From Halorubrum xinjiangense (GTDB taxonomy: Archaea > Halobacteriota > Halobacteria > Halobacteriales > Haloferacaceae): a stretch of DNA of 64,000 nucleotides. Numbering within the stretch: the stretch's first letter is position 1; each line of letters begins with the position of its first letter. The stretch covers positions 186,001-250,000 of the forward strand of contig NZ_FNBO01000001.1 in the NCBI RefSeq assembly GCF_900102375.1. The letters are read 5' to 3'. A model generated the notes under the pieces. The model made no database searches, was not told the origin of the DNA, and saw only the letters and a list, made by a program, of their open reading frames with translations. Made by a program: the position numbers and the translations under genes. Below, piece by piece: positions 3,733-53,804 of the stretch.

Positions 3733-3780
3733 TCCGCGCGAGCATATTCCTGACAAGCAGGAGTTTTGGCAGCGCCTGGT

Positions 3781-4177
3781 TTATAAATAACTGGCTGCGG
3801 ATTGACCGAGAACACCGCCAAGGTCCCAGCCGTTCGCTTATAAATAGTTGACAACGGATCGGCGGCAAACACCTCCAAAGCCCCAGCCGCGAGGACTCGC
3901 GCGGCTTGCTGCGCGCCTCGCTCAGTCGCTGGCTCCTTCGCTGCGGTGCTTCCGTCGCCGTGCTTCGTCCTCGCGGCTGCCCCTTTGAGTCCCGCCCCGC
4001 ACAGCACCGCGCCTCACGCCTCCCCAGCCTCGTCGGTGGTCCTCCGCTTCGCTCCGGACAACCGACTCCAGCGAGGGACCGAAGGTCCCTCTGGCAGCCG
4101 GCGCGTAGCGCCGGCGACCTCGCGCGTGCTGACTCGCGGCCGCCGAGGGCGGCCGCTCGCAGGCACGCGCCACCGCA
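3781..4177 (+). ncRNA. Dispersed structured repeat, copy A (candidate noncoding RNA with tandem promoters)
   Basis: Two 57-bp units begin with TTATAAATA at 3781 and 3838; the body follows. Helix I pairs CAGCCGCGAGGAC (3884-3896) with GTCCTCGCGGCTG (3967-3979). It is preceded by CTCCAAAG and followed by CTTTGAG, which pair across a CCC/CCC internal loop. A conserved linker follows (about 3980-4031), then helix II (GTCGG 4032-4036 with CCGAC 4062-4066), extra hairpins near 4075-4115, helix III (GCGGCCGCC 4136-4144 with GGCGGCCGC 4148-4156) and the conserved end GGCACGCGCCACCGC. TTTATAAATAG recurs at 4184-4194. A TATA box at 3838 would place a transcript start near 3865-3870, just before the first helix. 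It lies between divergent genes (lipoprotein and mutL). Whether it acts as RNA is inferred. Confidence 0.7.
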
Positions 4178-4277
4178 GTTTTGTTTATAAATAGCGCACT
4201 CGCAGAGCTTCAGTCTGTCTCGCGTCGCCGCGGACGACAACGGCTTGAAGTGCGCGCTCGTCAGACGGAGCGTACGA

Positions 4278-17101: not shown

Positions 17102-17618
17102 TTATAGGTCGTTGTTCGCGGAGCGGCGATGAACTCCGCCGGATCCGCGATCGCCCACTTATAAATGGTTGTTAACGAACCGGCGGCAGACACCGCCAAA
17201 GCCCCAGCCGCTCGCTTATAAATGGCTGACAGCCGGACAGCGGTGGACACTTCCAAAGCCCCAGCCGCGAGGGCGGCGTACGCTCGCTGTCGCCCGAAAA
17301 TCTTCGATTTTCGGGATGACGAGAGAGCTTCGCTCTCTCGAACCACGCTCCTTGGTCGCTCACTCCGTTCGCTCCCTGCGGTGCTTGCGTCGTCATCAGA
17401 ACGCGAAGCGTTCTGATTGGCTCACGAGAGCTCCGCTCTCGTGAACGCCTACGCCGCCCTCGCGACTGCCCCTTTGAGTCCCGCCCCGCACAGCACCGCA
17501 GCCTCACGCCTCCCCAGCCTCGTCGGCCGCCCTCCGCTTCGCTCCGGGCGGCCGACTCCCTCGCACGCGCTCCTCGCGGCCGTTTAAAAACGGCTGCTCG
17601 GAGGCGCGCGCCACCGCA
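17102..17618 (+). ncRNA. Dispersed structured repeat, copy B
   Basis: Three phased 57-bp units start at 17102 (degenerate TTATAGGTC), 17159 and 17216 (TTATAAATG), then the longest body of the family. Helix I pairs 17262-17280 with 17450-17468 (19 positions, one C-A mismatch). Its large loop contains a near-perfect hairpin around CGAAAATC...GATTTTCG, a GAGAGAGC hairpin (about 17320-17340), an AGAACGC hairpin (about 17398-17416) and a CACGAGAGC hairpin (about 17424-17444). Helix II is an 11-bp perfect stem (17522-17532 with 17546-17556). Helix III is GCGGCCGTTT with AAACGGCTGC. The conserved end is at 17604-17618, and TTTATAAATAG follows at 17643-17653. It lies between convergent genes, so these TATA-like boxes cannot be promoters of flanking genes. 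Confidence 0.72.
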
Positions 17619-20522: not shown

Positions 20523-20934
20523 TGTCTGTCTGGTTGGAACGGCACAACCGCAACGTGACCGCGACTCCGCGCGACGCGGCTACGGATCGCTCGCGGACCG
20601 AGCGTGTCCGACCGGGCGGCCCGCGCGAGCGAGCCGACCGACCGCGACGCCGGAGGCGTCGGCGCACTGCTACATTCCCAAGCCGCGGGCGAAAGGGCCC
20701 CGGCGAGTCGGATCTGCAGCTGTGCTGTTCCCGTATGCGAGGTCGCCGTCGGGGTTCTTAAGCGTGTTCTTGTGGGTCGGAGCGGCGAGACCGTCCTCGC
20801 GCTCGGCCCGCTTGGTTCGTTCCGCGTCGTCCGGGGTTTCGTTCCGCTTGGTTGCGGATTTCGTTCCGCGCGAGTTCTCCACAGAAGGGAGGATTTAGGT
20901 GGGTCGTCGGTATCGGGAGGTTTGTGAACGATCG
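20523..20934. other. Divergent spacer between rps15 and nhaC-like gene with 22-bp-spaced direct repeats
   Basis: 412 bp without a convincing gene. TTCGTTCCGC occurs three times at exactly 22-bp spacing (20816, 20838, 20860), two helical turns, so a protein could bind all three on one face. A TATA-like ATTTAGG lies at 20892-20898, about 40 bp before the antiporter ATG. A short hairpin GACGCC...GGCGTC lies near 20647-20662. Open frames here are Arg-rich and not protein-like. Confidence 0.45.
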
Positions 20935-22763: not shown

Positions 22764-22811
22764 TCAGTGCCCGAGGCGTACTTTTTCGAGGTCGTCGATT
22801 CTGTCGTTTAT

Positions 22812-23306
22812 TTATAAATAGCTGTCGGCGGATCGGCGGTGAATATCTCTAATTTCTCGGATTCTCGTTTATAAATGATTAACTGCGGATCGGCGGCAAA
22901 CACCTCCAAAGCCCCAGCCGCTCGGCGATACGTGATCGACTATTCCGCGGTGACCGCTTCCAAAGCCTCAGCCGCGAGGGCGGCGCACGCTCGCTGTCGC
23001 CCGAAAATCTTTGATTTTCGGGATGACGAGAGAGCTTTGCTCTCTCGGACCACGCGCTTCAGTCGCTCGCGTCGCTCGCTCCTTCCAGTGCTTACATCGC
23101 CTGCGCCGCCCTCGCGGCTGCCCGTTTGAGTCCCACCCCGTACCGCACAACACCGCACCTCACCCCTCCCCAACCTCGTCGGCCTCCCTCCGGTCGGCCG
23201 ACTCCAGCGAGGGACCAGAGGTCCCTCTGGCAGCCGGCGCGTCGCGCCGGCGACCTCGCGCGTGCGATTCGCGCCCTCCGGGCGCTCATCGGCACGCGCC
23301 ACCGCA
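22812..23306 (+). ncRNA. Dispersed structured repeat, copy C
   Basis: Three phased 57-bp units start at 22812 (TTATAAATA), 22869 (TTATAAATG) and 22926 (degenerate CGATACGTG). The body has the best helix I of the family: 22969-22987 pairs perfectly with 23102-23120 over 19 bp. Within the loop are hairpins CGAAAATC/GATTTTCG and GAGAGAGC/GCTCTCTC. Helix II is GTCGGCC with GGCCGAC (about 23178-23202). Then come hairpins around AGGGACC...GGTCCCT and CCGGCGCG...CGCCGG, helix III GCGCCC/GGGCGC (about 23271-23285), and the conserved end GGCACGCGCCACCGC. Same strand as both neighbours. Confidence 0.7.
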
Positions 23307-23354
23307 GTTGGGTTAAATACCACGTTTCAGAGGCGGGGTTCAGCCGCCGAGAGT

Positions 23355-42522: not shown

Positions 42523-42888
42523 TGCGGTGGCGCGTGCCTGCGAGCGGCCGCCCTCGGCGGCCGCGAGTCAGCACGCGCGAGGGAGTCGGGCGCGACGAGG
42601 GCGACCATAGGGAGCCCGAAGACGCGCCCGACGAGGCTGGGGAGGCGTGAGGCGCGGTGCGGTCGCGGTCGGGTGGGACTCAAAGGGGCAGCCGCGAGGA
42701 CGAAGCACGCCGACGTAAGCACTGGAAGGAGCGAGCAACGCGAGCGACTGAAGCGCGCAACGAGGCGCGCGAATCGTCGCGGCTGGGGCTTTGGAAGTGA
42801 TCTTCGCCGATCTGTCAGCACTCAGTTATAAGCGAGCGGCTGGGGCTTTGGCGGTGTTCGCCGCGATACCACCAAACACTATTTATAA
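42523..42888 (-). ncRNA. Dispersed structured repeat, copy D
   Basis: On the minus strand, TATA-like TTATAAATA begins at 42888 and TTATAACTG at 42831 (57 bp apart), then the body. Helix I pairs CAGCCGCGACGA (about 42784-42773) with TCGTCCTCGCGGCTG (about 42711-42697), with a two-base bulge. Helix II is perfect over 10 bp: GTCGGGCGCG with CGCGCCCGAC (42623-42632 with 42585-42594). Helix III is GCGGCCGCC/GGCGGCCGC (about 42564-42544). The conserved end GGCACGCGCCACCGC lies at 42539-42524. TATA-like elements flank the far side (42503-42513 and about 42472-42480). It lies antisense to both flanking genes. Confidence 0.7.
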
Positions 42889-46647: not shown

Positions 46648-47133
46648 GAGGGAATCTCCGGCGGCGAATCAGCGGTGAACGTTTCCGAAGCCCCAGCCGC
46701 TCGGTTATAAATGACTGATGGTAGCTCGGCGGCGAACGCCTCCAAAGCCCCAGCCGCTCGGTTATAAATGACTGATGGTAGCTCGGCGGCGAACGCCTCC
46801 AAAGCCCCAGCCGCTCGGTTATAAATGACTGATGGTAGCTCGGCGGCGAACGCCTCCAAAGCCCCAGCCGCGACGACTCGCGCGGCTTGCTGCGCTCCTC
46901 AGTCGCTCGTTCCACTCGCTCCCTGCGGTGCTTACTGCGCCGGGCTTCGTCCTCGCGGCTGCCCCTTTGAGTCCCGCCCCGCCCAGTACCGCACAGCACA
47001 GCACAGCACCTCACGCCTCCCCAGCCTCGCCGTTCGCTCCGGGCTCTCTTCGGTCGCCCGTCGCTCACGGCGTCCCTCGCGCGTGCTCCTCGCGGCCGCC
47101 TTCGGCGGCCACTCGGAGGCACGCGCCACCGCA
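46648..47133 (+). ncRNA. Dispersed structured repeat, copy E, with perfect 57-bp tandem array
   Basis: TTATAAATG starts at 46705, 46762 and 46819, all 57 bp apart, with identical units; a degenerate unit lies at 46648. The body follows: helix I CAGCCGCGACGA (about 46866-46877) with TCGTCCTCGCGGCTG (about 46947-46961); the conserved CCTTTGAGTCCC block; helix II reduced to CGCCGT/ACGGCG; helix III GGCCGCC/GGCGGCC (about 47094-47110) and the end GGCACGCGCCACCGC. 57 bp is 19 codons, so the array makes a false repeated peptide in every frame. It lies between divergent genes. Confidence 0.72.
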
Positions 47134-53460: not shown

Positions 53461-53804
53461 GGCGGTGGCGCGTGCCTGCGAGCGGCCGGAGCGAAGCGGA
53501 GGCCGCGAGGAGCCCGCGCGAGGGAGTCGGTCGCCGAGCGAAGCGACGGCGACCGACGAGGCTGGGGAGGCGTGAGGTGCTGTCGCGGTGCTGTGGGCGG
53601 GACTCAAAGGGGCAGTCACGAGGCGGACGCAGGCGACGCAAGCACCGCAGGGAGCGAGTGAAACGAGCGACCGAGGAGCACAGCGAGCGTGCGTCCGCCT
53701 CGCGACTGGGGCTTTGGAGGTGTTCGTCGTCTTGTATTCAGCCATTTATAAACGAGCGGCCGGGATTCGGAGAAGTCCGCCGCAGGGCCGCGAACCGTTT
53801 ATAA
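53461..53804 (-). ncRNA. Dispersed structured repeat, copy F
   Basis: On the minus strand TTATAAACG at 53804 and TTATAAATG at 53751 lead two units (53 bp apart here). Helix I is 19 positions: 53708-53690 with 53631-53613, with one G-T wobble and a C-G to T-A compensated pair relative to copies A, C, D and E. Helix II GTCGGTCGCCG with CGGCGACCGAC (53557-53547 with 53536-53526) is perfect over 11 bp. Helix III GCGGCC/GGCCGC follows, then the end GGCACGCGCCACCGC, and TATA-like sequence at 53448-53457. It lies on the opposite strand to both neighbours. Confidence 0.7.

Follow-up and report, generated by a model that had tools for sequence, protein, structure and literature searches.

Upstream of mutL, the window (the whole 64-kb stretch of DNA that was analysed) carries a repeated element, here called copy A, that extends over about 3780-4192, beginning on the left with two 57-nt TATA-bearing units and ending on the right with a TATA motif. 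Inspection of base pairing placed all three of its helices where the sequence-only reading of this DNA had put them. In helix I, a 13-bp variable stem is formed by the inner arms (3884-3896 with 3967-3979), and the outer helix, CTCCAAAG at 3873 against CTTTGAG at 3983-3989, pairs across a CCC/CCC loop just as that reading had described; helix II joins 4033-4042 to 4056-4065, and helix III joins 4136-4144 to 4148-4156 and is closed by 4122-4129 and 4163-4170. The limits of 3872-4156 proposed for the element at that stage were too narrow. The parts of copy A are given below, with the structured ones on the strand that most likely folds, the G-rich reverse strand (G strand).

3779-3835, plus strand: first 57-nt tandem unit, with a TATA motif at 3781-3788 and a degenerate AACACCGCCAAGGTCCCAGCCG
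3837-3883, plus strand: second 57-nt tandem unit, ending in CTCCAAAGCCC, which forms the 5' arm of helix I's outer helix
3873-3989, minus strand: helix-I core, assigned from covariation and the G-strand fold, comprising (G strand) the outer helix CTSAAAG/CTTTS, a GGG/GGG internal loop, the 13-bp variable stem, a tandem G.A loop and an apical rod
3990-3997, minus strand: GGGCGGGA (G strand), the near-invariant flank TCCCRCCC
4012-4032, minus strand: CGAGGCTGGGGAGGCGTGAGG, a conserved unpaired stretch joining helices I and II
4033-4065, minus strand: helix II, a variable palindrome with a GCGAAGC-type apex on the G strand
4070-4117, strand unassigned: optional insert of two perfect hairpins (GGGACCGAAGGTCCC, GCCGGCGCGTAGCGCCGGC), which most copies lack
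4122-4170, minus strand: helix III, with outer GCGCGTGC/GCACGCGC, variable inner GCGGCCGCC/GGCGGCCGC and TC/TC between them (GA/GA on the G strand)
4183-4192, strand unassigned: right-end TATA motif GTTTATAAAT, in other copies mostly 5-8 nt past CACCGC

The 3' motif of helix I occurs in six copies within the window, against 0.04 expected by chance. The five copies besides copy A are as follows.

17148-17618, plus strand: copy B, whose helix I contains additional internal hairpins
22801-23309, plus strand: copy C, with the 3' motif at 23121-23138 (one mismatch)
42523-42888, minus strand: copy D, at a site that is occupied in many congeners, with differing stems
46692-47133, plus strand: copy E
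53462-53765, minus strand: copy F

Some details of the earlier description need adjusting. The T-A pair to which a C-G pair was said to switch in copy F is present, next to a G.T mismatch; the complementarity claimed for helix I in each copy holds overall, with a C.A mismatch in copy B; and helix II, whose partners had been called perfect, exists in copy A with one mismatch (GGTGGTCC/GGACAACC).

Beyond the window, the exact 19-mer GCCCCTTTSAGTCCCRCCC occurs 111 times in this 3.26-Mb genome and is present in 67 of 116 Halobacteria genomes, representing 25 of 46 genera, while its reversed control has zero matches in the same 116 genomes. With copy A as the BLAST query, this genome alone gave 40 scored places. 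Among 292 haloarchaeal genomes the motif takes its CTCCAAAGCCCCAGYCG form in one genus only, and a plasmid of Halorubrum salinarum carries a closely similar form. When 84,980 prokaryote species were scanned, the core matches were all haloarchaeal among the matches listed, and the core was found in just 1 viral contig of 2.9 million; most of these searches used exact core anchors, so that copies with altered anchors escape the counts, which were drawn from sequence searches and retrieved stretches. Nearly all copies are intergenic, and their orientation to neighbouring genes (called with a simple codon-position score) follows no fixed direction. The element is a small mobile DNA repeat, present in about a hundred copies in this archaeon and found across haloarchaea; both its mobility and the spread of the family had escaped the sequence-only reading.

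In the window's genus, Halorubrum, a copy read on the strand of that reading has, in order, the 57-nt units, the helix-I core, the unpaired CCTCACGCCTCCCCAGCCTCG and helix II, then in some cases hairpin inserts, and last helix III with a TATA motif beyond it. What copies of other genera have in common with these is the helix-I core, about 130 nt long (GAAAGCCCC, the variable stem, conserved apical segments, the returning stem and GCCCCTTTCAGTCCCRCCC), frequently arranged as tail-to-tail pairs. The right-end TATA motif is present in 42 of 62 copies, compared with a background of 3.8%. Halorubrum copies have one to four 57-nt units, each bearing a TATA motif, and the spacing from TATA to CCAAAG/CCAAAGCCCCAG is 29 nt in 85 of 95 units. 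The TATA motifs of these units (3779-3883 and in other copies) have the spacing of a haloarchaeal promoter that would fire on the C strand toward helix I, whereas the fold favours the other strand. With its length of about 57 nt and its TATA motif, the unit is like the class I intergenic repeats of halovirus HF2 (58 bp, promoters), although those are viral and occur as single units, and the likeness is one of descriptions (PMC8707807).

The pairing of helix I was quantified in two sets of copies. The first, 117 copies from other genera collected with fixed anchors and without a complementarity filter, contains 86 different 5' arms, and yet on average 10.9 of 12 positions form Watson-Crick pairs, against 5.9 when partners are swapped. 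Covariation was tested with a script that follows the approach of R-scape (average-product-corrected G-test; nulls with the same substitutions on the same tree; empirical E-values from 100 null alignments), which gave 12 column pairs at E < 0.05, 11 of them stem pairs. A held-out set of 104 copies at 90 loci, from named genomes not previously used, paired at 10.5 of 12 positions versus 5.8 after swapping. In both sets, copies from one genome are kin and may exchange sequence. The covariation test on the 93 of these copies with at least 8 of 12 pairs found 13 significant column pairs, comprising 11 in the stem and two that fall into the next helix once the register is moved by one base, a shift that the GAA/GA internal loop requires. 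For 25 held-out rows in which the loop was swapped for a constant spacer, a pair counter found 97.8% of cells paired (shuffles 68.7 +/- 1.6), and the covariation score was 0.738, compared with 0.165 +/- 0.020 for shuffles and at most 0.078 for slid versions.

The other helices behave similarly. In the outer helix CTSAAAG/CTTTS, one pair is C-G in 85 of 86 copies of the window's genus, while 128 of 128 copies from elsewhere have G-C; at the adjacent pair, 79 copies have A-T, 14 have G-C and two have the intermediate G-T; helix II is represented by more than 10 unrelated stems, nearly all complementary. Since arm sequences vary between copies and yet stay complementary, the base pairing of the element is under selection, and the family displays the statistically significant covariation by which structured RNA families are recognised. 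Compensating change in the window's six copies had been taken as selection for structure, to be checked on an alignment of many copies; that argument holds far beyond the six, with 12 and then 13 significant pairs in two separate sets. Such strong covariation is evidence of a folded strand, but says neither which strand folds nor whether it is RNA.

On the question of strand, deviations from Watson-Crick pairing are informative, because G.T and A.C would be expected equally often if both strands, or only the duplex, mattered. Read on the G strand, the first set has 56 G.U against 18 A.C and the held-out set 62 against 8 (31 against 7 without the last two positions). Position 12 supplies a large share of the first-set excess; a first count over positions 1-10 of copies outside the window's genus showed no bias (13 versus 13), and helix II gave no wobble strand bias. 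Tandem GA/AG follows the stem at G-strand positions 14-15 in 45 of 93 held-out rows, where the other strand would have T.C mismatches, and the predicted RNA fold is more stable on the G strand in 57 of 60 copies. From the wobble bias, the tandem G.A pairs and the fold stability, the structured strand is therefore most likely the G-rich one, and on this point the sequence-only reading, which had described the opposite strand, is not supported. Two observations speak against an RNA of the G strand, namely that, in the window's genus, the spacing of the TATA units looks suited to firing the C strand and that copies lie in all orientations to neighbouring genes. As single-stranded DNA obeys the same pairing rules, we consider RNA to be the likely folded molecule and put it no higher than that.

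None of the 4227 Rfam families has a covariance-model match over the element at its gathering score, the best sub-threshold E-value being 1.4. The sole match in the window at gathering score is an S15-Halobacteria ribosomal protein leader (20664-20734, minus strand). Neither sequence words nor topic led to a description of this core in the literature, in which subscription papers were thinly covered. One could tentatively propose, at slightly less than even odds, a new class of structured noncoding RNA borne on IS6-type miniature elements, at a hundred sites per genome and in most haloarchaeal families, with a fold that would be conserved although the stem sequence differs between nearly all copies.

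Comparison of related genomes bears on how the element moves. At the mutL site, most congeners have the element in the same place and orientation as copy A, and its stems differ among them; several congeners have a decayed version, one has it inverted and three lack it. Upstream of mutL, relative L138 has an inverted copy, and relative L145 has the same upstream gene without the element. At site D, too, the element persists across congeners while the stems change. In another genus, a pair of cores in one species is missing from the same place in the other species, and core-bearing elements of about 0.3-0.6 kb have inverted IS6-type ends (GGYGGTGTTTAG / GGYGGTGTTTAGTTWAGC) flanked on both sides by exact 8-bp target duplications. 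The same GGYGGTGTTTAGTTWAGC ends bound a transposon of about 695 bp there, some copies of which have an 8-bp duplication, and whose product is an IS6-family transposase (NCBIfam NF033587 transpos_IS6, E 6.2e-56; Pfam PF13610). At one locus of a further genome there is a 215-bp element whose ends are related to these and which is flanked by an 8-bp duplication. The carrier of the hairpin is mobile in the other genus, and its copies there have both hallmarks of IS6-family miniature elements (MITEs), terminal inverted repeats shared with an autonomous IS6 element and an 8-bp duplication. IS6-type ends were seen in that genus and at the one further locus; among the window-genus copies no clear excess of target duplications was found. 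We infer that the window's own copies move by an IS6-type route too.

The element is best read as a MITE-like carrier of IS6 type, whose cargo is a hairpin conserved in structure. ISfinder includes IS6-family MITEs such as MITEHarch3 and MITEBth2, and the other-genus copies resemble these in their GG-starting terminal repeats, 8-bp target duplication, lack of a transposase gene, length of 0.2-0.6 kb and haloarchaeal hosts, as far as the accessible parts of the sources describe them (PMC6807381, PMC7986276). A payload hairpin with covarying stems, in contrast, is absent from those parts of the descriptions, MITEHarch3 having been compared by description (PMC6807381, PMC7986276). The likeness of the ends to IS6-family MITEs was seen in the other-genus copies, and the window's copies may share it. 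In the genus of genome G120, a second and commoner type of IS6-like end, GGCGGTGTTCAGATAAGC, stands singly at many places.

Other repeats share some of these features. The REP/BIME elements of bacteria, associated with a Y1/RAYT transposase, are intergenic palindromes present in hundreds per genome and frequently as inverted pairs. The present element is likewise a numerous intergenic palindrome with paired inverted copies, but its structure is conserved and its stem sequence is not, its hairpin is longer, and several copy-rich genomes have no Y1 enzyme; assignment to REP/BIME with RAYT was rejected, genomes with 62-69 exact copies having no PF01797 matches. Integron attC sites, which are recognised as a folded single strand, also conserve structure while their sequence varies, although their architecture differs. 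The PATEs, SMRs and MITEs of Haloquadratum walsbyi are, like our element, numerous transposase-free haloarchaeal repeats with palindromes, whereas the PATEs, compared by description, derive from IS605 ends without duplications, and covarying stems are unreported in the part of that source available (PMC3119063).

We give about even odds (roughly 0.5) to a reading in which an IS6-type miniature element carries a hairpin payload that is selected to fold as its G-rich strand, likeliest as a small RNA. Each copy would be a mobile element, small and non-autonomous; in one genus at least, an IS6-family transposase would spread it in trans by way of the terminal repeats that they share. The payload, a long hairpin joined in the window's genus by two further hairpins, would be under selection for the folding of one strand, the G-rich one, most probably in the form of a small RNA that the element gives rise to. 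Its stem could take any sequence, since all that counts is that the arms pair and that the GGG/GGG internal loop, the tandem G.A pairs and the GGGYGGGACTSAAAGGGGC flank are kept; a rod-shaped, protein-bound structure may serve as a comparison for such a hairpin.

The folded molecule could instead be single-stranded DNA, exposed in replication, repair or recombination and recognised as a REP-like hairpin by a nuclease, recombinase or replication protein. The carrier is after all mobile DNA, its paired inverted copies recall bacterial interspersed mosaic elements, its intergenic copies have no fixed gene orientation, and GNA-type apical loops and tandem G.A pairs are stable in DNA too. With the Y1 (IS200/REP-type) transposase absent from several copy-rich genomes and the core motif not found in the tnpA loci examined, we regard this as somewhat unlikely. 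It is also conceivable that the arms are complementary without selection, one being rewritten from the other by template switching at quasi-palindromes and gene conversion among copies, which would suit the wholesale difference of same-site stems between species, the frequent inserted palindromes and the many near-perfect stems. Such copying would erase the GGG/GGG and tandem G.A mismatches, which nevertheless persist between covarying helices, and duplex DNA copying does not predict a G.U bias on one strand; copying alone is therefore unlikely, though template switching may add to the turnover of whole stems.

A cis-acting element of the neighbouring genes (leader, terminator or insulator), kept for regulation, would explain why the element sits in one and the same place upstream of mutL in many congeners, and likewise at site D, and why its TATA motifs have a fixed spacing. 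It is quite improbable given that there is no constant orientation or gene partner and that relatives have the element decayed, inverted or missing at the same sites; a gene leader was rejected for want of a fixed orientation to genes. Scarcely credible, finally, is a guide RNA or end fragment of IS605/TnpB elements, even though the PATEs of Haloquadratum are described as palindromic, numerous and heterogeneous (PMC3119063, seen in part). This genome has 25 TnpB genes, yet just 1 of 40 scored copies lies within 2 kb of one, and the known ends are of IS6 type with 8-bp duplications, whereas PATEs, in the same partial source, have neither terminal repeats nor duplications. The idea thus failed on its defining features where tested. 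As candidate assignments, a TnpB guide RNA was set aside with that single coincidence, and a PATE or other IS605 derivative with neither a tnpA/tnpB link nor an absence of duplications.

On the best-supported reading, the element is an IS6-type miniature carrier and its hairpin a functional part that some partner reads. Miniature mobile elements are usually viewed as bare ends, and strong selection on an internal fold throughout an archaeal class implies that something reads it, be it a host protein, a chaperone or a transposition factor. A protein may bind the fold, and host or element may benefit; the hundreds of natural stem variants are a ready set for finding the partner.

Two smaller features of helix I deserve mention. 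With GGGG on both sides of the stem, the flank at 3990-3997 makes up four G-tracts, and the conserved tracts by helix I (GGG, GGG, GGGG and GGGG after the stem; for example at 3980-3997, minus strand) could form a hairpin-closed G-quadruplex. Perfect hairpins of about 20-40 nt, such as GAGACGCCTTCGGCGTCTC and CGAGAGAGCTTTGCTCTCTCG, are inserted inside helix I in some mutL-site copies of relatives (L140, L142, L131), as if small palindromes accumulated there.
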